Below, piece by piece: positions 9,601 to 45,371 of a stretch of 64,000 nucleotides of DNA (its first letter is position 1; each line of letters begins with the position of its first letter). The notes under the pieces were generated by a model, which was given only the letters and a program-made list of their open reading frames with translations, was not told the DNA's origin and did not search any database. Source of the stretch: Atopsyche davidsoni (taxonomy: Eukaryota; Arthropoda; Insecta; Trichoptera; Hydrobiosidae). Where the stretch lies: NCBI GenBank assembly GCA_022113835.1, contig JAILWY010000024.1, forward strand, positions 6,266,501 through 6,330,500, given 5' to 3'. Both the position numbers and the translations under genes were made by a program.

Positions 9601-9620
9601 AATATATACTCGTAGTTATT

Positions 9621-12570: not shown

Positions 12571-12574
12571 CGGA

Positions 12575-15998: not shown

Positions 15999-16044
15999 GC
16001 TGTAAATAGTATGAATATATCCAAGTTCTGTGATAGGTGACGTC

Positions 16045-16203
16045 ATGATTGCAGATTTGCCTGAAGTCTTTAGTTTATTCCGGCGAGCTGTCGAAGTAGT
16101 CGTCAGTGGAGCTGTCAGAACTCACTTCTTTGGAAGGAAATCGCACTGGCAATTTATATCCTTTGGTAAAGGACTTTCATTTGAAATTATTCCTCATTTA
16201 ACG
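16045..16203 (+). CDS. Putative coding first exon, cassette B (53 codons)
   Basis: In copy B the exon is open from ATG at 16045 to the donor at 16203 (ACG|GTAAGTACC), phase 0: MIADLPEVFSLFRR... to ...EIIPHLT. Copies A and C have a 25-base insertion and a TAG in this frame. Of the few A/B differences within the frame, several are synonymous (for example GCG/GCT, CCG/CCT, TCT/TCC). No family recognised. Its promoter looks damaged: the R1 junction at about 16000 removes the T-A of TATAAATA. Coding status is an inference. Confidence 0.33.
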
Positions 16204-18391
16204 GTAAGTACCATGAAATAAATATATATAGGAAATGCATTACTTTTGAAGATTTTTTGCACAACTTGTTTAAAAAGTAAAATGTACACGCCCATTTTTT
16301 ATACACATTTCGGAGCTCCTACTTGTCTTCCATTGTTTTATTTTTGCGACACACAAATCATCCATAGACAGTAAATATTATTGTCTATTAAAAATAATCT
16401 CATATCGCCCTTATTTTATTTATTATTTATGCGTTGCATAAATTAATGCCTAAACGCTAAACGCGAATTAGCTTCTCTTAAATATATTTAAAAGCAATTT
16501 TTATTATTTTTGTTTAAAACGAGTCACGATTTTTAATTATAGTTATTTGTAGAAATAGTATAAATTTCAAGAAATTTTTTAAAATATTTTATAAGACTAC
16601 TTGGAGATGGTTAATTCAATATTGGAATAGTATTTTCTTCATTTTATTGTAAAATTTTGGGTCAACCTAAGAATAGTATAATATTAAGTATTATAATATG
16701 AAAAATTATATATTTTGTATCAGTCTTCAAATAATACAATCAGAAGGGCTGCAAATGCTTCTAATAATAGCTTCTATGGATATTGTTAAAATAATATTTA
16801 AAAATGATTTGCCAATAAATCAGATATGACATGAAGGAAATTCTGTAACCAATATACATCATATTAGACATAGACTAGGGTTCGAAGCCCATCTGTCATA
16901 TCATTACCTATAAATGATGACCTTTACCTATTAAATATAAATTTACCTATAAATTTTCTGCAGCTGCCTTTAGATTCAAATAAATCTTCACTGATTTTGG
17001 TCTCAGAAGTTTGTATAACATTATCCTGTCAATTTTAACATTAGATCCTTACAGATGGCCGGCACCATTCAATCTGAACACTTATGCATCATAAAAATAA
17101 ATGTTAGCTCGCTGGTTAGTAAAAAAAAATAATTTAATTGAAAAAATAAACGACCGATCTTTCAAATTTTTCGGAAATAACTTAAGATAAAACATTAACA
17201 TAAAAGTAAATGTATTTTTCGATTCGAGTATCGCAACAAACTGACTGTTGTTCGAAGCTTCCGCGAGATCAATCGATTGAATTTATTATTACGACATGTG
17301 TTTGAAATACAAATAAAAAAGGAGTAGCCTATAAAACAAAAAAAAACTTTAAAAAATGTTAACTAAACATATGTGCAATTATAATCATTTCGTATAAAGA
17401 TCAACATAATTAAGTATTTAAGAAAAATACTTCTAGAAGAGAGGACTTTCAATAAAGCTAATAAAATGTTTTTAGCAAATAAATAAATATTATAGTTTTA
17501 TTTTAAAAAAAAAACAATTGTCCACTTCGGTAATGCGAATATCAATTTAATTTTAGAAAAAATATTGACTTTTGTTCTTAATTGTTATTATTTATTGAAT
17601 TCTTAGTCGGAATTTTTGAAATGAAATCTTAACTGTGATCACTGAATATCGTGAGTTTTTTTTTAATATTATATTTATGTTTTAGTGTATGCATAATGTT
17701 GAGGGACAGGTCCAAGATCAGTTTTAGTCATTCATCTGATGATGACCCGGTGTATAGGGTCGAAACTAGTTAATAAAAAGTTATTATTTTCATTATATTA
17801 GTGTATGCATTTTCAAAAAATATACGTGTGTTTTGAATAGCTAATGCAGCCTCTTCCTGCCTGAAGATGCCGATACAGCATGTTGGCGAAACTTGCCCTA
17901 CAATAAATATCAATTTTCAAAAACACTGAACATTTATTTTTATAATATTGCTTAAAAAAGCATCTAATTGTGTTTTTGGTGTGCGAAGACCGCTATTATC
18001 ATAAATAACAACAAGATTACTAAAAAATTAGATACTGCCAAAAATATAATTAGGTTAAGCATATCGGCGCCCAGTAACAATGCAAATGTTATAACCATTG
18101 ACGAAAGATAACATGTATTTTGGTAGTTTTTTTCTCATAACTTTATTGGGAAAAAAAACTAAATTATTTTTAAATGAATTAAAGAGTACGCAAACATTTT
18201 TTTCGGTTCAAGTGTCGCATCAACTGTCGGCTAAGAACATCTTCGATAAGGAGATAAGCTATCCCTCATACTATATATAGGTGCGACAAACATATTTTGT
18301 CGCACCTGTAAAAAGTATTTTTGTGATATGAATTTATTTATTTTTGTAATTAATTTTGTAATTCAATTTTGTAATTTAGTTTTTTTTTTAG

Positions 18392-18493
18392 CAGTCAGAA
18401 ACGCGACATTCCTGGAGAAAGCCGGCTTCAGTGCCCCTGAGTGGATATTTGGTGAAAAATGAATGACCCTGGGACTTCGACGTCTTCTGATGG
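18392..18493 (+). other. Putative second exon, cassette B
   Basis: Same acceptor (TTTAG|CAG) and donor (GATGG|GTGAGT) as cassette A. Joined in phase 0 to the open exon at 16045-16203 it would add 24 codons and then a TGA, giving a 77-residue product. Alternatively the internal ATG (MNDPGTSTSSDG) starts the real protein. Confidence 0.38.
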
Positions 18494-20100
18494 GTGAGTC
18501 ATAAATGCAAAGTATTCTTAAGGGCCCTCTCTCCGTCATTCGTGTTTTTTGATAAAACTTTTACGACATGAGATTATTTTATTTCTTATAAATTTACATT
18601 CAATTCGAGAAAAATATGCTCTCCTTAGTAAAGTTACGGCATTTGGGAGATCATAAATAAAATTGTTACAATACTCCTAAGCATTTAAAAGGGTTTTTTA
18701 AAGTGCAATTATAAATAAACATATGAACTAATAACAAAGTATGGGGTTTATAATAGTAAAAAAAAATACCTTTGTTTCAAAACAATGGTATGTTTTTACC
18801 ATTTTTTCTAATTTATCAACATTTATTTTAATTAATAAAAGATCGTTTTTCAAACAATTAAAAGTAATTTCATACAATTTATAGTTTTTTTTTAATATTC
18901 TGCTAAAGTTTTTAATAACAAAAGAAAATGAATACTTAAAAAAGTTTTACCTTGATTTCTACGTTTTGGAGCATTTCAAAGGTTTTGTGAGATCGGAAAC
19001 TTTGTATATACGAGTAACCTAAAGTATACTAAAATAAAACCGATATCACGTAATTGTAATGCCAGGTCTCTTGTGGACAAAAAGATATGTCCTTTCAGAT
19101 ATCGGAATTTTTTAAATTACTACTGTACACTATCCCAAATGATTTTTTTAAACCGTTTAAAAATCTGTGAAGTCAAAATTGCAACTTATTTTGGTGGAAA
19201 AGGGACGCTACTGGATTTGAATGCTTAAAGTCTGTTATTCAGTTCTTATGTCATTTTTATTTCTAATTTATCATCTTTTTAATCGTATCTGCTATTTCTT
19301 ATAAAGCTACCTGTTTTCCGGCATACATGTATATATTTAAACGAAATTAATAAAAAAAAGATTAAACAAGAGTAAATTTTTTTCTAAAATATAATGCTAA
19401 ATATAAATATTTATTCCCATTATCGCGGTGGACAATTATTCTAAAAACGAATTTAAAAGTGTAATATTTTATTTATTTACAAAATACATTTTATTGGATT
19501 TAATGGACATCCCCCCCTATAAAAAATATTTTTGCAAATTCTTGCAATAAATCACAATGAATATTTGTAGAAAATTTTCACACTAACTGCTCGATTAAAG
19601 ATTATGAAAAGTGTCGAAGATATTAGTAATTAATAAAATAAACAGATTATACCGAACTACCATATAACAAATGAGGTTTAACTTGTCGGCGGCCAGAAAC
19701 AATGCAAATGTCATTATGATTGACGAAAGACAACATCTAGTTTTTCCCATGTACCTACTGTGATAGATTTTTACAATAAATTTATTGGAAATAAACATGT
19801 TTGTAGGCAAAACTGCTAGCTTTAAATAAAAGCAATCATGAAAAACTTACTTTTTGTTTAAGAAATTTTATAACGCCTTTTCATCAATTACTCTCTGTGT
19901 AAAATACACCATTGTATGAGCAAAACAATATTATTTTTTTAATATAAAATATATATTAAATTATTACATATTTAATTCAATCTTAACTAAGATGTTTTTC
20001 TTTTTAAATATTATTTTTCATTTGGTGCATTTTGAAAAACAATTAGTGTATGTTATCGGTTTCTGTCATTTTCACATTGTGATTCTGAACACGTATTTTA
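18494..20100. other. Copy B stretch corresponding to 7629-9600
   Basis: Without the LTR-like block: at about 19441 it carries instead a short AT-rich piece (AAAAACGAATTTAAAAG) that resembles 48160-48180. No gene seen. Confidence 0.4.
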
Positions 20101-20119
20101 ATATATACTCGTAGTTATT

Positions 20120-20680
20120 TGGGGCCTAATTCACATAATCGAGATTTTTTGATCATTTTCTTGTCCGTTTTACGAAAAATCCACTGCATCAATCGAAAAA
20201 ATTTAAAAACAAAAAGTTTGATATGTCTCTTCTTCCGAATAAAATATATTTTTATTTCTTATAAATTTACTATTAATATGATAAATATGTGTTTTTCCGA
20301 TTGAAGTGTAGGAATTTGGAGATTCATCTGGTCAATTTTACAAGAGTCCTAAACATTTAAAAGTTTTTTTTTTAAATTGAAATTAAGATATTTAATATAA
20401 ACCATGTGCGCCTTATTATTTAAAAAAAAAAAAAAATCTTCAACAAACTTTGGTTTTGAAAAGTCGTCATTTTATCCAATTTTTCAACATCTTCATGATT
20501 TTATTTTACCCTTAAAATGAACGTTAATTAAATAATAAAAAATAGATAAATATAATTTATAGTTTTTTCAATACTCTGTAAAAAAAATCAACTTTCGATA
20601 TAGCAAAATAAAGTGACAATTAAATTAATTAGCAAAACAAACTAGAAAATGATCAAAAAATCTCTGGACTAGGCCCGAAA
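20120..20680. mobile_element. MITE, copy B
   Basis: Same termini and TAGTTATT flanks as 9621-10128, but 561 bp long because it keeps the internal block lost in A. The insertion predates the duplications. Confidence 0.6.
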
Positions 20681-21860
20681 TAGTTATTAATTGCTTAGTT
20701 GACAGGTAAAAGTTTTTTTTATTAAAGATAATGTTCATTCAATACTCTGCAGTTCGGATAAAGTCTAATAATCTGGATAGAATGTGATATTTTAGTTATA
20801 TATTTTTGAAAATTTTGTTTATTTAATTTTGAAAAAACTATTTATTTTGATTTAAAAATGATTGTAAAAAATTTCATGCTTAGAGCTGAAACAAGCATGA
20901 GCTCATGTACACTCTGTATAACTGAGAGCCCTTCAATAGAATCAACGATCTATAACGTAATTTTATCAAGTACCTCTGTAAAAATAATAAATACATACTT
21001 GGATCACAGTGATGCATTATTTTTTTTTATATCATTTACTTTTGAGTGCATTTTGAAAAAAACATTTGTGAATCGTTTCGTTCACTCTGTCATTTTATCA
21101 TTGAAAATAGCCAACGTAGCTCCTTTCCGCCTGAAGATGCCGACTTACTATGTTGGCAAAACTATAACTTAAAAAAATCTAGTTGAAATCACTCTGTACA
21201 ATTATTTTTAAATATTATTCAAATACTTTACCAATATATTTTTCTAGAGCGCAGACAGTTATCATTATTTTTTCAGAATTAATTGATATGATTACAAAAA
21301 TACCCGATACGATTAAAAAATTGTAACATAGAAATAAATATGAAGGTAGTAGCGATATGCAGCATCATCAAACTCTTTAGCCAGTTTGGCTAAAGAGTTT
21401 GATGCTTTAGAGACATTGCATGGCTTGAGGTATACTCTTATAATATATGAATATTTATTTATAAGAGTGTTTCACTTTCTACAGATGTCATGTACGGTAA
21501 CAAAAGATAGCATGTATGATAAAACATGTCTACGCTTGAGACATGTCGGGTATATTTGTTTTTCAAACTCCCGATAAATGATTATCTATTGTGGAATTAT
21601 TTACGCCGAAAATTAGTGAGAGTTCTTTAATAAAAAAAAAAAACATTTATTTTAATAAAAATCATATATTTATTAAATAAAATCGCAATTGACTTTTTTT
21701 TTTAGAAAAACCATACATTCTTAGCAGCCTTCAATGGTTTTAATTATTTTTTCGTCCCCTTTTCTTTGGGTTTGAGAAAAACAAATTTCATAATTTTTTG
21801 TACAGCTTCCTCTGTTTTCTCAATTTCACGAGTTATATATTATTTATATAAAAATAGTTC

Positions 21861-22668
21861 TAGCCATGACCCTTTTTTAAGCAGCAAAGACAAACGAGAT
21901 CTTTGCGCCCAACTATTACGGTCATAAATTGACCTTTGTAGAAAGTCGATGCACTTCATTACATAATGATCTGCGCTTTTGTAGTAACCTTAGATAACTG
22001 TTATATTTGCCCTTATTTTTTGTCGGTCTGTGGCACGCGCCGAGTCTATTGTCCATTCTTGGGTATTGGCCACTTGAGTATATGATTTTATATCTGACAC
22101 GTTAGCTGTATCATGTGTGGAATAGAGCGGGTAAAATTTCTATGCGATGCGATCTGTTTGCGAGGCTTACATTTAAGCCGAATCGACAAGCTAGGTCTTA
22201 AGGAATCATGATAATAATATAATATCTGGATGGATTACGTTGTTATCTCTGCCTAATTCTTGCCAATTTCTGCGCTGCACTGCGGTCATTTTTTCTAATA
22301 TTAGATAGATCAGATCTACATGACCGCTCAATTTCAACTGTTATAATGTAGCCACACACTTGCGAACGGTATATGAGAATATCGATATTTCCGCCACGGT
22401 ACCAGTTATCATTCTTGGAATTTATTTAACTTGTTCTATTTGGTCTGCCACTAGTGCGTGTAGGTTTCCAAATCTACGTTCTAGCGTTTTCATTATTGTT
22501 GACGGATCACAGCAGGCAGACAACAGAGCCACAACTGAGTCTCTGGCTGCTCCCTCAAAACACGTCTGTAGTCGAGAAATATTCTCGCGTGGTGTATATT
22601 TATACAACACCGATGTTTCTTGGTAGGCGGTATTAAACGCCAACCATTCCGAAGTTAACCCACAGAAG
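21861..22668 (-). pseudogene. BEL/Pao gag fragment, copy B (longer 3' part)
   Basis: Same gag core as copy A (main frame 22643-22422). It also keeps downstream gag sequence at 22133-21861, including DRNSWAQR...LLLKKGSW. This is the place of the BEL nucleocapsid (usual pattern LCFCCLKKGH), with its cysteines mutated and stops in between. It joins the R1 ORF2 at 22668/22669 by a deletion of about 1.83 kb relative to copy A. Confidence 0.78.
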
Positions 22669-22828
22669 TCTTGCTAAATATGGAAAGGAGTTTTATAGGT
22701 CTATAGGGTTTGATATCCGTATAATAGTTCTTGCCTGGCTTGGGAATCATTATCACTTTTGCTCTTTTCCATGTGTCCGGGAAACATTTCACTCTAAGAC
22801 ACGCGTTGATCATTTCGAAAGAAAGATC

Positions 22829-23401
22829 TCAAAATGATAGCACGAAATCGTGACATATATCCGAAGTAAAATTGTCGTCTCCTGGCGCTTTTGATGGATC
22901 CATGTTTTCTAGTACCCTGATGATTTCAGAGATTACAAAAGGTGGGTCATTGGGTGTATTGGGTGTGATCTTGAAATGTTTCCTAATAATTTCTCGATTT
23001 ATAGTGTCTGTTAACTCTGAAACCTCCGGGAAAAAGTATTCTTGTAATGCTTCAGTAGAGTCCTCCGCATTTGAAAATATCAAAGGCTCATTTCTTAATG
23101 TAGCTGGGGGCTTTGCTTGATTTGTAGAGGTGAGTACTCTGTAGACCGTCGACCACACTGTTTCTCTGTTTTGGTTCAAGCAGTAGTCTTTCCATGATTG
23201 TGTTTTGGCTTTCTGGATTGCAATTTTGTAGGTTTCTTTAGCATTTAAGAATGCTGTCAATGTTATTGATTCTCTTCTTGCGGGACCTGAATTTCGTAGT
23301 CTGTGTTTGGCTCTTACGACTTCATGTTTTAGACTATTGAGTTCTTTTGACCACCATGGATTGGGTTTCCTTCCTTTCCGATCAGTCTTTTTCTTTTGCA
23401 C
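22829..23401 (-). pseudogene. R1 ORF2 fragment before the RT core, copy B
   Basis: 190 codons almost identical to 14358-14930 (one visible change, Q to R in HRLRNSG). Ends at the same TGA. The catalytic motifs that should follow are deleted at 22668. Confidence 0.85.
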
Positions 23402-24104
23402 GCCGTTTTAATTGCTTTGGAAATTGTAGTAATTGAATTTAGTTCTTTGCTAGTTCTGACGTGAGCGAATACTTTAGGAGTTATGTTGAGGTTTTCCAAT
23501 GAAACCCTACATTTTATCTCGAAAAGATTCCAATCTGCTTTTTAGTAGTGTACAAGCGAGTTGTAGGATTCCCTTTAGCAGATGCCGAAGTGCTGTTAAG
23601 AGTAAAAGTAATAGTGCTAAGTTTTTATCCACTCTCCAGTGTCATTGACACTGTGTAAGTGAAGAGGTCTTCGATATGTGTCAAAAGTGGATTCAGAGCC
23701 TCTGTTAAAAATTTGGATATCTATTTCTGCCAAGCAGTCTTGTATCTTCATTCTTCTTTGATCTGTTTTATTGCTACTCCTCCATATTGATTTTACATTA
23801 AAGTCTCCTCCGACAATTATGGAATGATTCGCGGTTGATGAGGCTTTTTAAAAATTTTATAGTAATCCTGAGACGTCTCTTTGTGGTTCGATGTACACCG
23901 ATCCAATTAATGCGGATCCATGTTCTGTGTCCAGTTTAATGTACACATCATTAGGGCCTAAGTACTGACTCATCATCAAAGGAGAGTCTGCATTCTTACT
24001 AAAGACTACTATTTCTGCCTTGCAGATATCTTTGGGTTGAGAAGCTGCTTGAAAAACCATAACTCGAAATCGTCGAGTGACTGGATTTGGTTAAGCAGCC
24101 ATAA

Positions 24105-24689
24105 TCAGTGCGTTGAATTGCTCTCTCTTCCATTTTTTTTTAAATGTGCAGTTCTGGCTTGAGACTTATGATTCGTCAATTTTTGTTTAAGCTTGAAGCA
24201 ATTCCAACACTTGTGCTTAGATGATTCTTCTTTGAGGTCGTATTCGGATGCCTTGTGTTTGCCAGCGCAATATGCGCATCTGTTATCAGCGGACTCCGTG
24301 CATCTTGTGGAGGTGTGTCCAAATCCTAGACACTTGAAGCATTGAACAAGCGGCGAGTCGTCTTCAACGTGAACCTGAGTGAATCCAATGTTAATCCTTC
24401 CCAAGTTCAGCATTGCACTCCTAATGCCGCTGGTTACGTCCATTATTACGTTTCTAGGTCTGTCATTTTGCTGTTTGTGGATTCGCATTACTTTTGTAAA
24501 GTCATCTTGCTTATTTTCTCCTATAATATTGTACAGTGTATCATTCTGCACAATTATAGTCTCTACGACGTTTGAGACGTACTCGTTTTCGACTTCTTTT
24601 AGGATCATAATTGGTCGTCTCAAAGTGCCTTCTCGTGCATTGAGATCACAGACCAAAGCTATCCCTAAAGCGTCCCGTGGGATGCACAT
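24105..24689 (-). pseudogene. R1 gag (ORF1) with CCHC knuckles, copy B
   Basis: 194 codons open. It carries CFKCLGFGHTSTRC near the C-terminus and a lysine-rich end (HLKKNGRESNSTH). Frameshifted relative to the upstream gag frame 25018-24665. RNA-binding structural protein of the LINE particle in intact relatives. Confidence 0.85.
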
Positions 24690-25189
24690 GTTATGATGAC
24701 TTTATTGTTTCGCGTATTAGAAAGGCTTGTGACTCCTACTTTGAATGTTTGAGGTTTGATGCATTCCTTTATTTTGGTTGTTATTTCTTTTGGTGTTGCA
24801 TCTTCTTCATTTGAGGATATAATCACTGCGTGTCTGGGCTCAAGAGACTTGACTCTTGAGGCGTAGGTTTTTCTTGTGTTACTTGTGTCTTGCTGAAAGG
24901 ACGTTTTTAATTCAGTAAGTGTTCTTGAGTAAGCTTCTTCTTTGGCGAGAAGCATTGTATGGCTTTCAACCTCTGCAAGCACTTTGCTTATTTCGAGAGA
25001 GTGTTCTTGTTCACTCAACCCTGAGCACAGCTGGATAATGTTGATGAATGCGCTTGAGATTTCTTCTTTTTGTTATTTGGTCATAGTGCTTTTTCCCTTT
25101 AAAAGCTCGGCAACTTTCAGCCCTGATGTGGCATTGCGCAAGATATTGTTAACGCTGAAGTTCACGCTATTCATCTTATAAAAAATAGT

Positions 25190-26052
25190 TTTTAAACAAT
25201 TAAAAGAAGTTTCTATAAACAAATATGATAAATAAATTTACAATTTATTAAACGAGATGACACGATTTGGCCAAAAGTGACAAAAGCTTGCAGCACTGGC
25301 GGTGTCCATGAGTGATGGCGTCTTTTGTGCTCTGTTACTGAACCTGCCTAAGGCATAGCGTCGATTGGACAAATAATTAAGCTCTTCGTGTCACCTTCTA
25401 ATAAATGTTAAAAAAATAAAGTATATTTTTACATATACTCGTATGTATTTATGTAAAAATATAATTATTTAATATTTCTATTCATTGAACGGTTTTACTA
25501 TTACTGAATAGCGCTGCGGCCTAACACCTTAGACTTTAGAGTGCTAGTAGCAACGCTTAAGTGTTTGTCAATTTTACTAGCAAAGTTACTATCTATCTAA
25601 AACGAATATATAACAATCGATATATTGTACCAAACTTATTTGTATTGTTTGGGTGACTATCTTTTATTAGATATATACTCGTATTTATTCATCTCAAAAT
25701 ATGATATTCATAATAAATTATTCTAATAAATGAATATTCATATAAACATTGTCATTATATTTAGGAGACCTTGGTCCAAAATATGTCAGGTTTAATTATT
25801 TCGATTTCAACATTATTCCACACTAGCGACATCTGGTGTTGTGTTTTACCTATTAATCGGTAAATCGAGGGTAGAGAGGGCCCTTAACTCTGAGGTTTAT
25901 TTGACGTAAAATTATACATTTCTGTGATTTGAAGATCTGAGTGTATTTTATCTGTATTTGTAGATTCTTTTTCGCATCTGATATTTGGTGATTTTGGTTA
26001 TGCTATAGTCGGTCTCATGGCTTGTTTCTATTAAACTTGCAGATTTCCCACT
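25190..26052. other. Upstream region of the large gene
   Basis: About 860 bases between the 5' end of the R1 remnant and the start codon. It begins with what may be R1 5' UTR (25190-25370), then AT-rich sequence without any ORF. A weak pyrimidine stretch and CAG at 26040-26042 look like a 3' splice site directly before the coding start. I see no convincing TATA box, so the promoter and first exon cannot be placed. Confidence 0.4.
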
Positions 26053-29000
26053 ATGGTCTCCGAAAAAAATGACAATAATGAAAAAAACGTAGGCGCAATT
26101 ATAAATGCTGCAGCCGGGATTACATACCAGCTGAAGCTGGCTATGCTATTTTTTTTTAAGGCAATATCCAACAGTCACTCGTTCCAACTTTGGTCTGAAG
26201 TAGAATCCGCTGGGAAATTCGACGATGTGGTCTTTACGTACCAAAATGTTGAACAGGACAGAAAAGAGGCCATCTTCCTTCAAGCCAAGCACAAAAACGA
26301 CGAGACAAAAAATATTACTTTTAACAGTCTCATTAATGACAAAAACTTCTCCGTTCCTATATACTACCAGTCATGGCTCATTATCAAGAAGTCATTTTCT
26401 CACGTAAAGTGTCTTGTGATATGCACCACCGTAGACTTCGACGAACACACCAAAAAATATTTTACCAAATTCGAGCCAAGCGATTGTTCTTATCTAATTG
26501 AATACTCGAAGCTCTTCCATTTAGATTGTAAGGACAAGATGGGTGCCGTGTACCGTCTGGCCGAGGATGCACGCGAGGAGTTGTTCTCCAAGCTGTGGGA
26601 GAGCTCGGACGTCCATCAGCTGTGCATGAAACTGTGCGCCGCCTTGTGCGGAGGGAAACCACTCGACCGGAGGTGCAACCTCGTGAAGCGATACCAATCA
26701 CCTCTAGCAAGAAAAGTGCTCAACGTATCGAACAAAAGTACTGGTTTTAAATGCGCCTTCAAAACTGATTCATCGCCTGAAGTAAGCGATTTCCGAGACG
26801 CACTAAGAAGATCTGCGAAACTCCATGCTGGAAACTGCAAATTAAAACTAACTTGTAAGCTATCTGACATTGAGAGCATCTTCGAGTTAAAAGTGAAAGT
26901 CGCAAATGGTTTCGGGATTGTTGAAACGGACACGTGCCTGCCGCGTGACCCAACTGACCGCGAAGACTTCGAACAGTTTGCAGATAAACTGTTGTTAGCT
27001 GTGAATCAACCCTCAGATACACAGCTGGACGACATTCTGACCAAAGAACTCAAGCTTCTGATCAAATGCGATGACGATCTCAAGGATACCGCCTATCAAT
27101 CAATCTTTGTTGAATTTTTTAATTGGTTTAAAGATTCACGAGGAGAGATGTTTAACGAGGGAAGTCGGAAAGATATACTTAATAAAATAAAAGCGAAAAT
27201 TAATTATCCCATAAGCGCAGGCATGCACAGTTCATACAAAGATAAACTTAAAAGTTGTACATTTTTGGAAATAATGAAAGATGGAGCCTGCATTGAGCTT
27301 GTATCTTTACTGGATAATGGAAGTGGGGTTGATAAATCACGTGTTATTTTCTTTGAAGTAGAAAATACAGTGATTGGATTATCATTGGTGCACCAAGCTT
27401 TGAAAACGACAAAAACATACAAAAAAGATAACAGCTTCATTTTTGAGAAAACCAGCTCTTTACAGACATCTAGCATTCAAGACCGAATCATCGCCAGCTT
27501 GCAGAGGAGTGACTTCCACAACTTGCTGCTGCTGGAGTGTGATGTGTGCCAGAACCAGTACTTGAGGGACTTCCTGGCCAGCGTGGTGGAGCGCACCGAA
27601 GCGCAGGTGGTGCTGGTATACCCGCATGGCACACTCTATCAGTTTCCCGTGGGGCTCTCGTTCCAATACGTTCATTCGAAGAAGAAATACGGCTTCCCTG
27701 ATCTCACCCTGGATACTCAGAGCTATTTTTTGGATAGAACGGTTACCTTACAAGGAAGCTCGGTTATTTTGAAAGATCTTCTTTCCAGTAAAGAGTTGTA
27801 TGCGGCCATCGATTGCGACACTTTAGCGAAACTTATTCTCGGGACTGAAATCCAATTCGGAGACAAAGTGACTCACTCCAAAATTTACGATCCCGAATTA
27901 TACATCGAGCGTAAATTATATCAAATTGTGAAACTAGACACGAAAATTTTGTTTGATGAGAATTTTCCCGATTTGATTGCTCTATCTGGAGTAACTTTGG
28001 ATAATCTAATGACGTTAATGAATGACAACATACATCATAACGATTTAAAAGTATTTTCTTATTTACGAAAAAATAAACTAAATTGTCAGATGACTGCAAA
28101 AATTTTCTTATTAGATGATCCTGATAGTCGGGAGAGTGATTTTTATTATATTTGTAAAATCAGATCTAAGTCTAACGTTCATTGGATGAAGATGCCCAAT
28201 TTAAAAGACCTTGTTTGGATGAAAACACACGGAAAGATCGAGCTTCTCCACAAATTCAGACTCGAGCAGGCCGGAGAGCAACAGGCCGAGGAGGACTGCC
28301 AGAGCCAGCAGGACTTGTCTTCCCACCAGACTCCGTACACCATCATAGTCAGCAACGAAGCCGGGGCAGGCAAGACCCACTTCCTCGCTTACCAGGCAAA
28401 CATCACCAAGAATAAGCATATGAACTGTATGGTGGCCTTTGTAGACTTAAACAGCAGCTCCCAAAGTTTAAACGATGAACTATCTCTCAGAAGTGAAAAA
28501 AATCACAGCTTCTCTCGTTCGAAAGTTCACAAGGCAGTATTTTTTCTTGTTGAGAAGCTATTGGATGTTAATTTGTATTCCGCGCGGTTGAAAAAGTTGC
28601 TAGAAAAAAAACTATTAGAAAGTTATCATGTAAAAGGAATAAGCGGGGTTTATGTTTTCTTTGATGGTTTTGATGAAATCAGCCCAGACTACGCGGAGGT
28701 TGTGGTGGACTTGATGTGTGCGCTGCAGGAGTGTGGGGTGGGGCTGGTCCTCACCACTAGGCCACACATGCGCCAGCACACCGAGACAGAGCTGGGGGTG
28801 TTTTGCCACACGCTGGCTGTGTTTAGAGACACGGAAAAAACTGAGTTCATTCACAAATTTAAGAAGATCCAACCAAATACTAGTAATATAGATCTCGATA
28901 AAAAATTCGATCCCAAAATGGAAAAAATCCAACGTTCAGAAATGTATCAATCTTTATGTGGCTCTCCTTTAATTCTGCAAATGGTCCTACAAGTTATTTC

Positions 29001-32000
29001 TAGTTCATTGAACTCAGATGATAACCCATTTATACCTGAAAGTTCTGACATTCAAATGTCAATTAATGCGCTGTACAAAACATTTGTGGAATCAGTATTC
29101 AAGTTATCATTATCGAAATCAAAAGCAGATTTCAATACTCTCATGTTTAAAAGAGATTTCCAAAAGAGAATGTTAAATTTTATAGAAATCCATAAAAATT
29201 TGGCCTTGTCTGCATTACTTAATAATAAAATTAACGATTTATTATCGATAAAAGAGTTGAAAGCTGTGCAGGCATACTTAGACGCACACAAACAAGGAAA
29301 TGAAAATGAAGGACTTGTGACTGCTGTGGTCGACAATAGGCCGGTCTTCATACATCGATCTTTTGCGGAGTACTTGGTAGCCGTGTACTTCAGTGAGTTG
29401 TTTAAAGGCGAATTGGAGTATGATCAATCACGCGATGTATTCGTTTCTATAGTGTTAGCAAAAGACAACTTTGTCTTGACACGCAAATTTTTTGATTCGG
29501 AATATAGTAACAATGAAGCCATGCATTTTTTAAATGAAGCTAACTTGTGTCTCAATATTTTGGAAAATTCGGTTAGAGAGGGCAATTCCAGAATATTGAT
29601 AAATGCATTGAAATGGCTTGAAATCCACGCTAGCGCTGATCAGAAGGATCACGTCTTATATAACTCGGACAAGTGCCTGCTAAGAGAAGCGATAACCTCT
29701 AAGCAACTGGACTCTCTGAAGCTTTTAATCGAGCATGGCGACGACATTAACAGTACAATCAATAATAAATCTACACACAAAGAATTTCTCATTCACGTCG
29801 CTGCCTACCAAGATTGGAAAGAAGGATGTCACTATTTAATTGACTGCAATGCCAATCTTCAAAAATATAACATGAACGGTGATAACATCTTACATATCTG
29901 CATTGAAGGAAACATTGAATTTGAAATAATAAAAAAAATTACTACCAAAGACGAAACATTAAAAGCAATGCCGACTTTACGTTTGGGGAACACTCCACTC
30001 CATCTGGCAATTCACAAAAAGAGATATGACGTGATTGATTTATTGTTAGATAATGTTAATAATATCAATATCACTAACAACAAAGGAGATACTGCTCTAC
30101 ATTATAGCATATATTGTAATTTAACGTTGGAAACTATAAAGAAAATAGCTTCACTCGGAGGTTCATTGAGCATAAGTAATAAATACAAAAATACTCCACT
30201 CATGACTGCTGCGAAATCAGGCGCGTTGGACGTTGTCAACTGGTTGGTCAAATCGGGCTGTAATATAAGCCAATTTCATGCGACTAATGGAAAAACACTG
30301 CTGCATTTATGTATTAACTGGGGCGTTGATTTAAAAACAGTTCAAACAATCGCTTCCCTTGGAGATTGGAAAAATCATCTTGACTTTAAAGGCTATTCTC
30401 CACTCATGCTTGCTGCAAAATTAGGCAGGTCAGACGTGGTCAACTGGTTGGTCGAATCGGGCTGTAATATAAGCCAATTTCATGCGACTAATGGAAAAAC
30501 ACTGCTGCATTTTTGTATCCAGGAAGATGTTAATTTAAAAACAGTGCAAAGAATCGCTTCCCTTGGAGATTGGAAAAATCATCATGACTCTGAAGGCTAT
30601 ACTCCACTCATGCTTGCTGCAAAATTAGGCAGGTCAAACGTGGTCAACTGGTTGGTCGAATCGGGCTGTGATATAAACCAAGTTCATGCGACCAATGGAA
30701 AAACACTGCTGCATTTTTGTATTAAAAGGTGTGTTGATTTAAAAACAGTTCAAAGAATCGCTTCCCTTGGAGATTTGAAAAACCAACTTGACTCTAAAGG
30801 CTATTCTCCACTCATGCTTGCTGCGATTTCAGGCAATGATGATGTTGTCAGCTGTTTGGTCAAATTGGGCTGTAATATAAACCAAGTTCATGCGACGACT
30901 GGTGAAACACTGCTGCATTTAAGTATACAGAATGAATTAAAATTGGAAACAATTCAAAGTTTTGCTCTCATTGAAGATTTGAAAAATCATCTTGACTCTA
31001 AAGGCTACTCTCCACTCTTGCTTGCTGCGCAATTAGGGAGGTTAGATGTTGTCAGCTGGTTGGTCAAATCGGGCTGTGATATAAGCCAAATTAATGCGAC
31101 GACTGGTGATACAGTGCTGCATTTGTTAATTAGAAATGATGTAGAATTGGAAAAATTTCAATGTTTTGCTTTATTCGGAGATTTGAAAAATCATCTTGAC
31201 TCTGAAGGCTACTCTCCACTCTTGCTTGCTGCGCAATTAGGGAGGTTAGATGTTGTCAGCTGGTTGGTCAAATCGGGCTGTGATATAAGCCAAATTAAGG
31301 CGACGACTGGTGATACAGTGCTGCATTTGTTAATTGAAAATGATGAAGAATTGGAAAAATTTCAATGTTTTGCTTTATTCGGAGATTTGAAAAATCATTT
31401 TAACTCTGAAGGCTACTCTCCACTCATGCTTGCTGCGAAATCAGGCAGGATTGATGTTGTCAGCTGGTTGGTCAAATCAGGTTGTGATAAAAACCAAGTT
31501 CATGCTACTGAAGGATATACACTGCTGCATTTTTGTATTAACGGGTGTGATGATTTAAAAACAGTTCAAAGTATCGCTTCCCTTGGAGATTGGAAAAACC
31601 ATCTTGACTCTGATGGCTATTCTCCACTCATGCTTGCTGCGATATCAGGCAATGACGATGTTGTCAGCTGGTTGGTCGAAACGGGTTTTGATATAAACCA
31701 AGTTCATGCGACAACTGGCCAAACAATGCTGCATTTATGTATTAAGTATAATATAGAATTGAAAACAATTCAATGTTTCGCTTTATTTGAAGATTGCAAA
31801 AATCATCTTGATTCTGAAGGTTATTCTCCATTAATGCTTGCTGCAAAATCAGGCAGGTCAGATGTTGTCAGCTGGTTAGTTGAATTGGGCTGTGATATAA
31901 ACCAAGTTCATGCGACTAATGGAAAAACAGTGTTGCATTTTTATGTTCAGAATCATGTTGAATTAAAAACAATTCAAAAAATTGCTTCCCTTAGAGATTT

Positions 32001-35000
32001 GAAAAATCATCTTGACGCTCAAGGCTATTCTCCACTCATGCTTGCTGCAGAATCAGGCGAAGATGATGTTATCAACTGGTTGGTCAAATTGGGCTGCGAT
32101 ATAAACCAAGTTCATGCAACCAATGGATGGACACTGCTGCATTTATGTGTTCAGGGGGGTATTATTTTAGAAATAATTCGAAAAATCGATTCCCTTGGAG
32201 ATTGGAAAAATCAGCTTGACTCTGAAGGTTATTCTCCACCCATGCTTGCTGCGAAATCACACAGGTCAGATGTTGTCCGCTGGTTTGTCGAATCGGGCTG
32301 TGATATAAACCAAGTTCATGCAACGAATGGAAAAACACTGCTGCATTTTTTAATGGATTACCGTGTTAATTTAAAAACAGTCCAAAGTTTGGCTCTCCTT
32401 GGAGATCGGAAAAGTCATCTTGACTCTGAAGGCTATTCTCTACTTATGCTTGCTGCGAAATCAAGCGATGTTGATGTTGTCATGTGGTTGGTCGAATCAG
32501 GCTGTGATATAAATCAAGTTCATGCGACTAATGGAAAAACACTGTTACATTTTTGTATCCAGGAGAATGTTAATTTAAAAAAAGTGCAAAGAATCGCTTC
32601 CCTTGGAGATTGGAAAAACCATCTTGACTCTGAAGGCTATTCTCCACTCATGCTTGCTGCAAAATCAGGCAATGACGATGTTGTCAGCTGGTTGGTCGAA
32701 ACGGGTTGTGATATAAACCAAGTTCATGCGACTTCTGGAAAAAGACTGCTGCATTTTTGTATCTATTACGGTGTTAAATTAGACACCATTAAAAAAATCG
32801 CTTCCCTTATTGATTGGAAAAATCATCTTGACTCTAAAGGCTATTCTCCACTCATGCTTGCTGCGAAATCAGACAGATTTGATGTTTTCAGCTGGTTGGT
32901 CAAATCGGGCTGTGATATAAACCAAGTTCATGCGACTAATGGAAAAACACTGCTGCATTTTTGTATTGATCCCTATGTTGATATCACAACAGTTCAAAGA
33001 ATCGCTTCCTTTGGAGATTGGAAAAATCATCTTGACTCTGAAGGCTATTCTCCACTCATGCTTGCTGCGGAATCAGGCAATGATGATGTTGTCAAATGGT
33101 TGGTCGAATCAGGCTGTGATATAAACCAAGTTCATGCGACAACTGGCCAAACAATGCTGCATTTGTGTATTGAGAATAAAATAGAATTAAAAACAATTCA
33201 AAGTTTCGCTTTCCTTGAAGATTGGAAAAATCATCTTGACTCTGAAGGCTATTCTCCACTCATGCTTGCTGCAAAATTAGGCAGGTCAGACGTGGTCAAC
33301 TGGTTAGTCGAATCGGGCTGTGATTTAAACCAAGTTCATGCGACTAATGGAAAAACACTGCTGCATTTTTATATCCAGAAAGATGTTAATTTAAAAACAG
33401 TTCAAAGAATCGCTTCCCTTGGAGATTGGAAAAATCATCATGACTCTGAAGGCTATTCTCCACTCATGCTTGCTGCTAAATCAGGCAGGTCAGATATTGT
33501 CAGCTGGTTGGTCGAATCGGGCTGTGATATAAGCCAAGTTCATGCGACGAATGGAAAAACACTGCTGCATTTTTGTATTGATCGCATTGTTGATTTAAAA
33601 ACAGTTCAAAAATTGGCATCCCTTGGAGATTGGAAAAGTCATCTTGACTCTGAAGGCTATTCTCCACTGATGCTTGCTGCAAAATCAGGCAGGTCAGATA
33701 TTGTCAGCAGGTTGGTCGAATCGGGCTGTGATATAAGCGAAGTTCATGCGACGAATGGAAAAATACTGCTGCATTATTGTTTTGTTCGCTTTGTTGGTTT
33801 AAAAACAGTTCAAACAATCGCTTCCCTTGGAGATTGGAAAAATCATCTTGACTCTGAAGGCTATTCTCCACTCATGCTTGCTGCAAAATCAGGCAGGTCA
33901 GATATTGTCAGCTGGTTGGTCGAATCGGGCTGTGATATAAGCCATGTTCATGCGACGAATGGAAAAACACTGCTGCATTTTTGTATTGATCGCATTGTTG
34001 ATTTAAAAACAGTTCAAAAAATCGCTTCCCTTGGAGATTGGAAAAATCATCTTGACTCTGAAGGCTATTCTCCACTGATGCTTGCTGCAAAATCAGGCAG
34101 GTCAGATATTGTCAGCTGGTTGGTCGAATCGGGCTGTGATATAAGCCAAGTTCATGCGACGAATGGAAAAACACTGCTGCATTTTTGTTTTGTTCGCTTT
34201 GTTGGTTTAAAAACAGTTCAAACAATCGCTTCCCTTGGAGATTGGAAAAATCTTCTTGACTCTGAAGGCTATTCTCCACTCATGCTTGCTGCAAAATTAG
34301 GCAGGTCAGACGTGGTCAACTGGTTGATCGAATCGGGCTGTGATATAAACCAAGTTCATGCGACTAATGGAAAAACACTGCTGCATTTTTGTATCCAGGA
34401 AGATGTTAATTTAAAAACAGTTCAAAGAATCGCTTCCCTTGGAGATTGGAAAAATCATCATGACTCTGAAGGCTATTCTCCACTCATGCTTGCTGCTAAA
34501 TCAGGCAGGTCAGATATTGTCAGCTGGTTGGTCGAATCGGGCTGTGATATAAGCCAAGTTCATGCGACGAATGGAAAAACACTGCTGCATTTTTGTATTG
34601 ATCGCATTGTTAATTTAAAAACAGTTCAAAAAATTGCTTCCCTTGGAGATTGGAAAAGTCATCTTCACTCTGAAGGCTATTCTCCACTGATGCTTGCTGC
34701 AAAATCAGGCAGGTCAGATATTGTCAGCCTGTTGGTCGAATCGGGCTGTGATATAAGCCAAGTTCATGCGACGAATGGAAAAACACTGCTGCATTTTTGT
34801 TTTGTTCGCTTTGTTGGTTTAAAAACAGTTCAAACAATCGCTTCCCTTGGAGATTGGAAAAATCATCTTGACTCTGAAGGCTATTCTCCACTCATGCTTG
34901 CTGCAAAATCAGGCAGGTCAGATATTGTCAGCTGGTTGGTCGAATCGGGCTGTGATATAAGCCATGTTCATGCGACGAATGGAAAAACACTGCTGCATTT

Positions 35001-35970
35001 TTGTATTGATCGCATTGTTGATTTAAAAACAGTTCAAAAAATCGCTTCCCTTGGAGATTGGAAAAATCATCTTGACTCTGAAGGCTATTCTCCACTGATG
35101 CTTGCTGCAAAATCAGGCAGGTCAGATATTGTCAGCTGGTTGGTCGAATCGGGCTGTGATATAAGCCAAGTTCATGCGACGAATGGAAAAACACTGCTGC
35201 ATTTTTGTTTTGTTCGCTTTGTTGGTTTAAAAACAGTTCAAACAATCGCTTCCCTTGGAGATTGGAAAAATCTTCTTGACTCTGAAGGCTATTCTCCACT
35301 CATGCTTGCTGCGGAATCAGGCAGGTCAGATATTGTCAGCTGGTTGGTCGAATCGGGCTGTGATATAAGCCAAGTTCATGCGACGAATGGAAAAACACTG
35401 CTGCATTTTTGTATTGATCCCGATGTTGATATCATAACAGTTCAAAGAATCGCTTCCCTTGGAGATTGGAAAAATCATCTTGACTCTGAAGGCTATTCTC
35501 CACTCATGCTTGCTGCAAAATCAGGCAGGTCAGATATTGTCAGCTGGTTGGTCAAATCGGGCTGTGATATAAACCAAGTTCATGCGACTTATGGACAAAC
35601 ACTGCTGCATTTTTGTATTGATCCCGATGTTGATATCACAACAGTTCAAAGAATCGCTTCCCTTGGAGATTGGATAAATCATCTTGACTCTGAAGGCTAT
35701 TCTCCACTGATGCTTGCTGCAAAATCAGGCAGGTCAGATATTGTCAGCTGGTTGGTTGAATCGGGCTGTGATATAAACCAAGTTCATGCGACTAATGGGA
35801 AAACAGTGCTGCATATGTGTATTGAGAACGATGTTAATTTATACACAATTCAAAGAATTGCTTCCCTTGGAGTTAATGAAAATCGTTGTGACTATGAAGG
35901 TTCTTCACCACTCATGATCGCTAAGAGCTCAAACAGGTCAGATATCGTCAGCTGGTTGATGAATCGTTGA
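26053..35970 (+). CDS. Nuclease-like / NACHT STAND NTPase / ankyrin-array protein (3305 aa)
   Basis: Single uninterrupted ORF. Seen in the sequence: residues 14-90 carry the order G22-x2-YQ, E49/E51, D57-D58 and Q77-x-K79, which matches the E...D...QxK core of PD-(D/E)XK nucleases of the Cap4/DUF4297 group. Residues about 90-760 are a long linker region I cannot assign. NEAGAGKT at 768-775 is Walker A. FFDGFDE at 869-875 is the NACHT-type Walker B with the paired acidic residues, and LTTRP at 900-904 fits the sensor-1 position. Ankyrin repeats start near residue 1208, irregular at first, then 28 exact 68-residue double repeats (from 1379) and a final half repeat. Start: ATG with A at -3 and G at +4, eleven bases after a possible 3' splice site (AG at 26041-26042), so a 5' UTR intron is likely. 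Inferred role: intracellular oligomerising sensor with DNA-cleaving output, cytosolic or nuclear. No signal peptide or membrane segment is evident. Codon composition changes abruptly between GC-rich and AT-rich patches. The domain calls are from motif reading only. Confidence 0.92.
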   Translation: MVSEKNDNNEKNVGAIINAAAGITYQLKLAMLFFFKAISNSHSFQLWSEVESAGKFDDVVFTYQNVEQDRKEAIFLQAKHKNDETKNITFNSLINDKNFSVPIYYQSWLIIKKSFSHVKCLVICTTVDFDEHTKKYFTKFEPSDCSYLIEYSKLFHLDCKDKMGAVYRLAEDAREELFSKLWESSDVHQLCMKLCAALCGGKPLDRRCNLVKRYQSPLARKVLNVSNKSTGFKCAFKTDSSPEVSDFRDALRRSAKLHAGNCKLKLTCKLSDIESIFELKVKVANGFGIVETDTCLPRDPTDREDFEQFADKLLLAVNQPSDTQLDDILTKELKLLIKCDDDLKDTAYQSIFVEFFNWFKDSRGEMFNEGSRKDILNKIKAKINYPISAGMHSSYKDKLKSCTFLEIMKDGACIELVSLLDNGSGVDKSRVIFFEVENTVIGLSLVHQALKTTKTYKKDNSFIFEKTSSLQTSSIQDRIIASLQRSDFHNLLLLECDVCQNQYLRDFLASVVERTEAQVVLVYPHGTLYQFPVGLSFQYVHSKKKYGFPDLTLDTQSYFLDRTVTLQGSSVILKDLLSSKELYAAIDCDTLAKLILGTEIQFGDKVTHSKIYDPELYIERKLYQIVKLDTKILFDENFPDLIALSGVTLDNLMTLMNDNIHHNDLKVFSYLRKNKLNCQMTAKIFLLDDPDSRESDFYYICKIRSKSNVHWMKMPNLKDLVWMKTHGKIELLHKFRLEQAGEQQAEEDCQSQQDLSSHQTPYTIIVSNEAGAGKTHFLAYQANITKNKHMNCMVAFVDLNSSSQSLNDELSLRSEKNHSFSRSKVHKAVFFLVEKLLDVNLYSARLKKLLEKKLLESYHVKGISGVYVFFDGFDEISPDYAEVVVDLMCALQECGVGLVLTTRPHMRQHTETELGVFCHTLAVFRDTEKTEFIHKFKKIQPNTSNIDLDKKFDPKMEKIQRSEMYQSLCGSPLILQMVLQVISSSLNSDDNPFIPESSDIQMSINALYKTFVESVFKLSLSKSKADFNTLMFKRDFQKRMLNFIEIHKNLALSALLNNKINDLLSIKELKAVQAYLDAHKQGNENEGLVTAVVDNRPVFIHRSFAEYLVAVYFSELFKGELEYDQSRDVFVSIVLAKDNFVLTRKFFDSEYSNNEAMHFLNEANLCLNILENSVREGNSRILINALKWLEIHASADQKDHVLYNSDKCLLREAITSKQLDSLKLLIEHGDDINSTINNKSTHKEFLIHVAAYQDWKEGCHYLIDCNANLQKYNMNGDNILHICIEGNIEFEIIKKITTKDETLKAMPTLRLGNTPLHLAIHKKRYDVIDLLLDNVNNINITNNKGDTALHYSIYCNLTLETIKKIASLGGSLSISNKYKNTPLMTAAKSGALDVVNWLVKSGCNISQFHATNGKTLLHLCINWGVDLKTVQTIASLGDWKNHLDFKGYSPLMLAAKLGRSDVVNWLVESGCNISQFHATNGKTLLHFCIQEDVNLKTVQRIASLGDWKNHHDSEGYTPLMLAAKLGRSNVVNWLVESGCDINQVHATNGKTLLHFCIKRCVDLKTVQRIASLGDLKNQLDSKGYSPLMLAAISGNDDVVSCLVKLGCNINQVHATTGETLLHLSIQNELKLETIQSFALIEDLKNHLDSKGYSPLLLAAQLGRLDVVSWLVKSGCDISQINATTGDTVLHLLIRNDVELEKFQCFALFGDLKNHLDSEGYSPLLLAAQLGRLDVVSWLVKSGCDISQIKATTGDTVLHLLIENDEELEKFQCFALFGDLKNHFNSEGYSPLMLAAKSGRIDVVSWLVKSGCDKNQVHATEGYTLLHFCINGCDDLKTVQSIASLGDWKNHLDSDGYSPLMLAAISGNDDVVSWLVETGFDINQVHATTGQTMLHLCIKYNIELKTIQCFALFEDCKNHLDSEGYSPLMLAAKSGRSDVVSWLVELGCDINQVHATNGKTVLHFYVQNHVELKTIQKIASLRDLKNHLDAQGYSPLMLAAESGEDDVINWLVKLGCDINQVHATNGWTLLHLCVQGGIILEIIRKIDSLGDWKNQLDSEGYSPPMLAAKSHRSDVVRWFVESGCDINQVHATNGKTLLHFLMDYRVNLKTVQSLALLGDRKSHLDSEGYSLLMLAAKSSDVDVVMWLVESGCDINQVHATNGKTLLHFCIQENVNLKKVQRIASLGDWKNHLDSEGYSPLMLAAKSGNDDVVSWLVETGCDINQVHATSGKRLLHFCIYYGVKLDTIKKIASLIDWKNHLDSKGYSPLMLAAKSDRFDVFSWLVKSGCDINQVHATNGKTLLHFCIDPYVDITTVQRIASFGDWKNHLDSEGYSPLMLAAESGNDDVVKWLVESGCDINQVHATTGQTMLHLCIENKIELKTIQSFAFLEDWKNHLDSEGYSPLMLAAKLGRSDVVNWLVESGCDLNQVHATNGKTLLHFYIQKDVNLKTVQRIASLGDWKNHHDSEGYSPLMLAAKSGRSDIVSWLVESGCDISQVHATNGKTLLHFCIDRIVDLKTVQKLASLGDWKSHLDSEGYSPLMLAAKSGRSDIVSRLVESGCDISEVHATNGKILLHYCFVRFVGLKTVQTIASLGDWKNHLDSEGYSPLMLAAKSGRSDIVSWLVESGCDISHVHATNGKTLLHFCIDRIVDLKTVQKIASLGDWKNHLDSEGYSPLMLAAKSGRSDIVSWLVESGCDISQVHATNGKTLLHFCFVRFVGLKTVQTIASLGDWKNLLDSEGYSPLMLAAKLGRSDVVNWLIESGCDINQVHATNGKTLLHFCIQEDVNLKTVQRIASLGDWKNHHDSEGYSPLMLAAKSGRSDIVSWLVESGCDISQVHATNGKTLLHFCIDRIVNLKTVQKIASLGDWKSHLHSEGYSPLMLAAKSGRSDIVSLLVESGCDISQVHATNGKTLLHFCFVRFVGLKTVQTIASLGDWKNHLDSEGYSPLMLAAKSGRSDIVSWLVESGCDISHVHATNGKTLLHFCIDRIVDLKTVQKIASLGDWKNHLDSEGYSPLMLAAKSGRSDIVSWLVESGCDISQVHATNGKTLLHFCFVRFVGLKTVQTIASLGDWKNLLDSEGYSPLMLAAESGRSDIVSWLVESGCDISQVHATNGKTLLHFCIDPDVDIITVQRIASLGDWKNHLDSEGYSPLMLAAKSGRSDIVSWLVKSGCDINQVHATYGQTLLHFCIDPDVDITTVQRIASLGDWINHLDSEGYSPLMLAAKSGRSDIVSWLVESGCDINQVHATNGKTVLHMCIENDVNLYTIQRIASLGVNENRCDYEGSSPLMIAKSSNRSDIVSWLMNR
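26095..26320 (+). other. PD-(D/E)XK (Cap4/DUF4297-like) nuclease motif block
   Basis: Part of the large ORF, roughly residues 15-90. GITYQ at 22-26 sits at the start of a hydrophobic helix. SEVESAGKFDDVVF follows at 48-61 and the QAKHK motif at 77-81. The spacing E51 to D57/D58 to Q77-x-K79 fits a restriction-endonuclease-like beta core in which E, D and K hold metal and polarise water. Known for the family: in bacteria this fold cuts double-stranded DNA when a linked sensor is triggered. That this arthropod copy is active is inference; all the core acidic and lysine positions I expect are present. Confidence 0.7.
28330..28830 (+). other. NACHT NTPase core (Walker A, Walker B, sensor 1)
   Basis: Within the large ORF. 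Walker A is SNEAGAGKT (767-775). The usual first glycine of GxAGxGK is Asn768, but K774 and T775 are intact. Walker B is four hydrophobic residues then DGFDE (871-875), the acidic doublet that separates NACHT from the NB-ARC class. TTRP (901-904) sits where NACHT proteins have T(S/T)RP. Together these indicate a nucleotide-driven STAND switch between the nuclease-like head and the ankyrin tail. Confidence 0.85.
30187..35970 (+). repeat. 28 tandem 204-bp ankyrin double-repeat units plus a half unit
   Basis: Unit starts fall every 204 bases exactly: 30187, 30391, 30595 and so on to 35695, with a partial unit at 35899. Each 68-residue unit is two ankyrin motifs: GYSPLMLAAKSGRSD..., ending near HAT, then NGKTLLHFCI..., ending WKNHLDSE. 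No unit gains or loses a base, so the frame is kept across 5.7 kb. Units 16-20 (33247-34266) are repeated almost unchanged as units 21-25 (34267-35286), and units 17-20 alternate two types (408-bp period). Most differences between units fall at unit residues 44-46 and 48. Confidence 0.95.
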
Positions 35971-44169: not shown

Positions 44170-45371
44170 CAGTTAGTAAGAAAAGAGCGTAACTTGCATA
44201 AATTATAAAAAAAATTAAGTCTTGTATTAGAAAATAGTAAAACACGTAGTTAATCATACATACTTAGATGTTTTATTATCAATAAGGTGTCTTGACTCCT
44301 TGCATTGTTCATAATAGCCAAGCATCTTCGAGGCATAATTTCAACTAATTTTTCTTCATATTCACGGGATAATGATTTCTATATGGCTTTTAAATTGCAA
44401 GTAAGCTCAGTGGCATTTAGCGTTTTATTCCCTCAAAGTTTAAGCTTCATTAACGTTTAAACGTTTTTAATTGGGTTTGCGTCAGGAGATTGTGAAAGCC
44501 AATCCAAGACCTCGATGTCTTTATCTTGTTTCCACGCGCTGCATAGGCAACATCGGTGTTTGGGGTCATCATCTTCTTGTAATATCCATGACTCACTTGG
44601 GCTTGGGATCAGACTTTGGGCAGATGGTAATAATGCTTTCTGGTATATTTGGTTCATCCTTGCAGCATTCAAAGTTCCGGTAAACAAGTTCAAATTGCCA
44701 AAACCACGTTTTGGGAAGCATCCCCAAACATGCACCTTTACCGGATGTTTTACAGTTTTTTCGACCTGTCTGTTATCGGCAGTTGACCAAGCACGAGGTG
44801 AGATACTAGTTGCCTAAAACGAAGCTTCGTTTAAAAAGATAGTCTTGTCCCAGTCGCGGTCTTTGTTTTCTTGTGCCCAGGACATTCTTTTCTGAAAGGA
44901 GCGGTTTCATCAGTGTGCTTCGGTATTTTAATCTCCATCAAATGTCTTCTACTTGTAGCTAGAGATATATTTAGTCCTTTTTGCTTTAGTTTTTCTTGTG
45001 CAGATTGCAAAGATAGAGGTGGTTTCTTCTAAAATAGGTTAGTTATCCGCTTACCCTCGGCGGATAACGTCTTTTTTGTTTTACCACGTTCTGGTAAGTC
45101 ATTGACGTGTTTCGTTTCTAAATATCGGTTTTCCCACTTGGTCATAAACGCCTTTGACTTATTCATAAACTTTGAAGCCTGAAAGTGTGACATTTTTATC
45201 TCAAACTTATCTCTGGAAATATGCACTCTGTGCGAAGTGAACACAAAGCTGGATAACTTTTACGATGCATTAAGGGCAAAACGTTGGACTATCTGCTGGT
45301 TTCTTTTATTTTGAATTTTAAAACCCCGAACACATTTTTTTACAGTGTTCACGTTCTTGTAAAACAAACTG
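44170..45371 (-). mobile_element. Tc1-like transposon, decayed
   Basis: Ends CAGTTAGTAAGAAAAGAGCGT and, reversed, CAGTTTGTTTTACAAGAACGT are imperfect inverted termini, each next to TA (44168-44169, 45372-45373), the Tc1/mariner target. At 1.2 kb it is shorter than usual for Tc1 elements (about 1.6 kb). Confidence 0.8.
44457..45244 (-). pseudogene. Tc1-like transposase, broken
   Basis: Frames in order: N-terminal DNA-binding part 45244-45029 (VNDLPERGKTKKT), middle with frameshifts, and catalytic part 44735-44457 (VWGCFPKRGFGN, LQEDDDPKH, LSQSPDANPIKN). The first catalytic Asp is Asn (IFLNEASF, codon at 44829-44831). The last acidic residue (PIEN in active relatives) is Lys. Dead on two of three DDE positions. 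Confidence 0.85.

Follow-up and report, generated by a model that had tools for sequence, protein, structure and literature searches.

Bacterial nucleases of the Cap4 (CBASS), LmuA (Lamassu) and HerA-DUF4297 systems are under the control of nucleotides bound by SAVED, of LmuB or of HerA, and a Cap4-like nuclease also forms the N-terminus of the Avs proteins (Avs3, PDB 8dgc; Avs4, PDB 8dgf), where it precedes a central STAND nucleoside triphosphatase (NTPase) and a C-terminal repeat sensor. Animal NLRs such as NLRP3, NLRC4 and NOD2 carry a NACHT domain and a repeat tail, and arthropods, to our knowledge, are usually said to lack this NLR arm. Here we describe a gene from a 64,000-nucleotide stretch of the Atopsyche davidsoni genome (termed the window; positions 6,266,501-6,330,500 of the 9.0-Mb contig C24, in a genome of 370.7 Mb on 80 contigs) whose protein resembles each of these groups in part. 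With the Cap4, LmuA and HerA-DUF4297 nucleases it shares the predicted fold of residues 17-385 and the order of an acid, a DD and a QxK motif, but this head is fused to a NACHT domain and ankyrin repeats. With NLRs it shares the NACHT fold and its motifs and a repeat tail, whereas a nuclease-type head replaces the death-fold domain and ankyrin repeats replace leucine-rich repeats (LRRs). From Avs proteins, which have the same general order of domains, it differs as an animal gene in a multigene family, with a NACHT domain of NLRP3/NLRC4 likeness, an ankyrin tail and an additional pseudo-NTPase domain. It is not an Avs, a term for antiphage genes of prokaryotes with a sensor of the Avs type, since it resides in an arthropod genome and ends in ankyrin repeats; by analogy, it may work like one. 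We consider it probable, at roughly 0.6, that the gene belongs to a family of NLR-like STAND receptors that has expanded in arthropods and whose members would be activated by a trigger, act through the nuclease-type head and form a diversifying repertoire.

The combination of NACHT and ankyrin as such has been described. In its passages on these proteins, PMC5062602 presents it as common to arthropods and the Wolbachia prophage and proposes transfer between them, and the NACHT proteins of arthropods and Daphnia covered there, together with the NACHT-ankyrin-latrotoxin protein of prophage WO, resemble the window protein in this respect, as judged from their description. The word 'nuclease' is absent from the main text of PMC5062602, and neither its section 11 nor the passage on its Fig. 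5 describes a head of this type, a family expansion or mosaic copies. Passages of PMC8195603 list restriction endonuclease heads as effectors of bacterial conflict systems and ascribe few or no TRADD-N domains to arthropods. Among the literature titles and abstract openings listed, none names this head together with NACHT and ankyrin, from which we do not conclude that it has never been published.

Architecture of the window protein

The gene consists of a single ATG-to-stop frame, which is the longest of four ATG frames of at least 150 residues in the window (the runner-up has 245) and which stands out by its GC content of 38-42% compared to 24-32% over most of the window. Its features, in window coordinates, are:

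26053-35970, + strand: coding sequence, one uninterrupted open frame of 3305 amino acids (frame listing)
26023-26042, + strand: predicted 3' splice acceptor, pyrimidine-rich with a CAG end, 10 nt upstream of the ATG (reading as leader intron)
26101-27207, + strand: Cap4/DUF4297-type nuclease head, residues 17-385 (core 15-140), from predicted models and profile matches
26197-26289, + strand: putative active-site span, from conservation: E49 (26197-26199), D57-D58 (26221-26226), Q77-A-K79 (26281-26289)
27208-27852, + strand: AAA+/P-loop-like domain lacking Walker A (pseudo-NTPase), residues 386-600, before the NACHT domain
28309-29502, + strand: NACHT NTPase with helical/winged-helix part, residues 753-1150, from structure models, motifs and weak Pfam matches
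29686-35967, + strand: ankyrin tail, residues ~1212-3305, with 204-bp tandem units (68 amino acids, two ankyrin repeats) from 30194

The assignment of the head to the Cap4/DUF4297 nuclease superfamily is supported by predicted fold, profile match and its acid, DD and QxK motif. Structure models of residues 17-385 predict a PD-(D/E)xK-like fold of the Cap4 type, a call that rests on VIA-align 2 and the profiles; in a Foldseek search with the head model, no match reached E ≤ 0.001, the best being MspJI at E 0.03. Submitted alone, the head matches the PADLOC LmuA profile at 3e-8, along with its kin, a match that is absent from the results when 749 or 1382 residues were submitted instead. Pfam contains no match to the head, searches of Pfam, NCBIfam and PDB sequences with it gave nothing useful, and neither a local LmuA profile nor hhalign, in a comparison from which 5 of 12 loci without a frame were excluded, gave a significant result.

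The head contains the motifs GITYQ, E49, F56-D57-D58 and Q77-A-K79-H. In an alignment of 40 rows, comprising the window protein and 39 homologues (P0027, a 40th, has no head match and was left out), F56, D57, D58, Q77 and K79 are the sole columns across residues 1-230 that are identical throughout, and E49 is kept in 38. E49, D57, D58 and K79 are also invariant in all 21 copies compared within the own genome, and Q77 is found in 20, whereas residue 51, a glutamate in the window copy, is E, K or D in these copies. The acid of the putative site is thus E49 rather than E51, which the initial annotation had proposed, while its D57/D58 and Q77-x-K79 following GITYQ were correctly placed.

The same positions bear on the possibility, in our view quite unlikely, that the protein is the proposed receptor with a head that is catalytically dead or only binds nucleic acids, its output being scaffolding or cell death via partners. 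Motif III reads QxK in place of (D/E)xK, position 77 is a lysine in one own-genome copy, position 49 is an asparagine in some relatives, and catalysis is a prediction. Conversely, QxK occupies the corresponding place in both SAVED proteins that were retrieved (see below), and the four invariant residues persist at 70% mean head identity among the 21 copies. The latter argument is tempered by the invariance of 38 of 126 head positions in these copies, which makes own-genome paralogues alone weak evidence for the putative site.

A link to Cap4 is also apparent in direct searches. With the head of the paralogue L037 as query, tblastn against 72,556 plasmids (limit E 10) returned three records at E 1, 2 and 3, all annotated as SAVED-domain proteins, and both proteins retrieved contain DDVV and QVK at the expected places. 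L040 scores 13.7, 12.0 and 9.0 with the profiles A2, A3 and A4, compared to 8.1, 7.5 and 6.2 for the best of 2,700 shuffles; L041 exceeds the shuffles with A2 only, and LmuA sequences exceed them with none of the three. Matches to the LmuA model occur in 25 of 299 Pseudomonadota genomes, several of them confined to about the first 115 model positions, the part that is also matched by the window head, in frames of 1192-1942 codons; such proteins are perhaps Avs-like.

The middle of the protein is, according to models and motifs, a STAND NTPase of the NACHT clade. It displays a predicted NACHT fold, a Walker A motif of the GK[ST] type (AGAGKT, residues 770-775, 28360-28377, including K774 and T775), a DGxDE motif (DGFDE, residues 871-875, 28663-28677), sensor 1 and GxP (residues 970-972), with TTRP at residues 901-904. 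Pfam matches to this region, NPHP3_N at 1.5e-4 and NACHT at 0.014, both remain below the Pfam cut-off. The tail holds 28.3 copies of the 204-bp unit (30194-35966), and all 27 spacings between 28 repeat anchors are exactly 68 amino acids. Pfam finds neither a death-fold head (CARD, PYD or DED) nor an LRR in the window protein.

The initial annotation had described a single 3305-residue frame, a NACHT switch with intact K774/T775 and DGFDE and a huge ankyrin tail, all of which are borne out. Its view of a Cap4/DUF4297-type nuclease joined to a NACHT STAND module and ankyrin repeats in an arthropod agrees with the profile matches, the structure models and the cuticle-domain count given below, and the restriction-endonuclease-like fold that it anticipated is found in the predicted models; profile searches with the head succeeded with LmuA but not with Pfam.

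Family organization and recombination

The initial annotation dealt with a lone gene, a picture that has to be replaced by that of a clustered, recombining multigene family. With residues 1-749 as query, we find 82 match rows in the own genome, 7 of them with an internal stop, and with residues 750-1150, 43 places, of which 41 are free of stops. A pairing script with a gap limit of 1800 nt locates a head upstream in the same open frame at 31 of the 43 places, and three further places (two on C13, one on C3), with gaps of 1858-1903 nt and the same open-frame length, bring the total to 34. Members cluster on C24 (4.25-4.37, 5.93-5.97, 6.25-6.35 and 8.0-8.3 Mb) and C28 (4.36-4.46 Mb); C3, C11, C13, C20 and C27 carry further ones. 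Two unusual arrangements were noted: L034 (G000:C24:8202748-8209365) holds the NACHT stretch twice, along with a second, incomplete middle region, in one frame of 2883 codons, and the member at G000:C28:4438188-4441661 lies inside an open frame of 4209 codons.

The window itself carries traces of recent duplication. Its segments 1-14085 and 48279-64000, which run in the same orientation, match each other at 91-99.7%, with a third copy of much of the repeat at 16061-24474, and the 1.4 kb preceding the gene are 99% identical to the stretch before the next copy, L018, about 53 kb downstream and beyond the window end. From these similarities, we read the repeated flanks as a probable tandem duplication of recent date, spanning about 50 kb with the gene inside, plus an inner repeat. 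At the level of bases, L018 and the window copy are 98.7-100% identical through the head, to about residue 380. Beyond this point, identity is 77-92% as far as about residue 1200 and lower still across the ankyrin tail. Over the stretch that starts near residue 570, L018 matches L033 and L035 on C11 at 94-99% identity, whereas the nearest relatives of the window copy among 20 sampled paralogues are other C24 copies. The shared head is therefore found on two different bodies.

This setting could also reflect repeat or mobile-DNA cargo that has no host function and was multiplied by segmental duplications, as the uninterrupted body, the clusters, the repeated flanks and the nearby pieces of long interspersed element (LINE) and mariner-like sequence might suggest. 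We regard such an origin as very improbable. In the sample, which consists of the 20 best-scoring rows plus two extra heads and is thus biased to intact copies, all 20 paralogues have intact frames of 1065-2803 amino acids. The median pairwise ratio of non-synonymous to synonymous substitutions (dN/dS), from non-independent pairs with dS of 0.1-1.5, is below 1 in every region measured: 0.58 for residues 15-140 (185 of 210 pairs), 0.46 for residues 761-960 (195 pairs) and 0.67 for residues 961-1150 (188 pairs). Moreover, the upstream sequence in most cases ceases to resemble that of 13 other copies by about 140-330 nt, with short similar patches beyond.

The mobile elements were recognized by eye, all on the - strand: LINE reverse transcriptase-like and zinc-knuckle-like frames in repeated pieces at 13605-16074, 22829-25072 and 63520-63999, and a mariner/Tc1 transposase-like fragment at 44457-44813. 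We also considered whether the gene might be a contaminant, an idea that we reject given its position at 6.27-6.33 Mb of a 9.0-Mb contig and 144 matches genome-wide to PF00379, which we take to be the arthropod cuticle domain and on account of which we treat the genome as that of an arthropod.

The pyrimidine-rich CAG before the ATG points to an intron in the 5' leader. An in-frame stop lies just 5' of the start, with the stretch open from 26035, and a comparable CAG is located near the start in the 20 sampled paralogues. L037, L038 and L039 have it in different surrounding sequence, in L038 and L039 also with upstream stops. In several paralogues, however, an open frame that begins at an ATG further upstream reads through the CAG, which makes a conserved N-terminal peptide the alternative for these copies.

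Proposed function and ancestry

The proposed receptor function builds on computed features of the proteins (domain order, fold, ATPase motifs and a putative active site that is conserved) and of the family (its size, intact frames and recombination), from which we infer catalysis, oligomerization, a ligand and an immune role for proteins of this type. The ankyrin tail would bind a trigger that most likely is made by an invader inside the cell (a virus, an intracellular bacterium or a mobile element), thereby releasing the NACHT domain for ATP binding and oligomerization. The oligomer would gather the Cap4/DUF4297-type heads, which would cut either the DNA of the invader or, as suicidal output, that of the cell, and new specificities might arise by tandem duplication, body swaps under a shared head and turnover of ankyrin units. 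If so, a recombining family with a nuclease effector would provide arthropods with an NLR arm, and a bacterial abortive-infection effector would have entered animal immunity, with a history tied to exchange with Wolbachia-like symbionts. More tentatively, as an idea that we find plausible rather than probable, some arthropods may possess diversified, recombining intracellular receptors, kin to proteins of intracellular bacteria, that oligomerize a bacterial-type nuclease upon infection to cut DNA, in an animal form of abortive infection with shuffling of heads and sensors. The size of the head, small enough for expression and assays, makes the question testable.

Protein searches returned 40, 43 and 5 homologues and confirm the arthropod relatives mentioned in the initial annotation, with named hits from Diabrotica, Planococcus, Nephila, Temnothorax, Rhynchophorus, Euwallacea, Periplaneta, Pectinophora, Wasmannia, Diploptera, Ephemera and Culex. 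Named bacterial homologues are from Wolbachia, Symbiodolus and one metagenome-assembled genome labelled Verrucomicrobiota. The initial framing as arthropod immune sensor is supported as regards the domain architecture, while the ancestry is entangled with intracellular bacteria, in which related proteins occur.

These relatives raise the alternative of a domesticated symbiont effector, in which a gene from an intracellular bacterium, where it served as host-directed effector or weapon, has acquired an arthropod role other than infection sensing, such as symbiont control or germline conflict. Although we hold this to be unlikely, several findings speak for it. Of 159 stretches found in genome_contigs by a single degenerate pattern, 2 loci were confirmed, in Ca. 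Mesenet longicola, where one frame of 1076 amino acids has the order head, NACHT, ankyrin, and in a Midichloriaceae genome, where the locus consists of two neighbouring frames; the scan is not exhaustive, since Wolbachia, a carrier of the head, is not among its matches. Ca. Symbiodolus P0004 contains head and NACHT, with ankyrin repeats N-terminal of the head, and heads are found in Wolbachia P0047, P0052 and P0088. In a tree of 57 rows (7 from the own genome, 34 without organism label; 17 of 53 inner branches weak), arthropod and bacterial labels interleave, with 6 and 5 changes, at least 4 each on starred branches, the simplest reading of which is repeated transfer. On the other side, neither label is more clustered than after shuffling, where 66 and 218 of 500 shuffles give values as low, the 7 own-genome rows cluster together (SH-aLRT 99) at the end of a long stem, and the copies look fitted with a predicted leader intron; more than one entry is possible because the copies on C3 and C13 and at C24:7981103 were left out of the tree.

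Searches of viral contigs with the head alignment confirmed no locus, and phages and plasmids contain no match to the Mesenet protein. The head also precedes an NB-ARC-type NTPase in Wolbachia P0047 and P0088, the latter with tetratricopeptide repeats, and in the ant gene models P0030 and P0036. As Temnothorax P0030 falls together with P0047 and P0059 of Wolbachia in the tree (100*), the sequences suggest a recent transfer between these lineages. With P0047 as query, 10 of the 299 Pseudomonadota genomes show matches, of which only that of the Midichloriaceae genome includes the head part, the others starting from residue 264 in the NTPase part. This Midichloriaceae genome contains a second head-like match (G001:C81:4108-4464) in a frame of 1879 codons.
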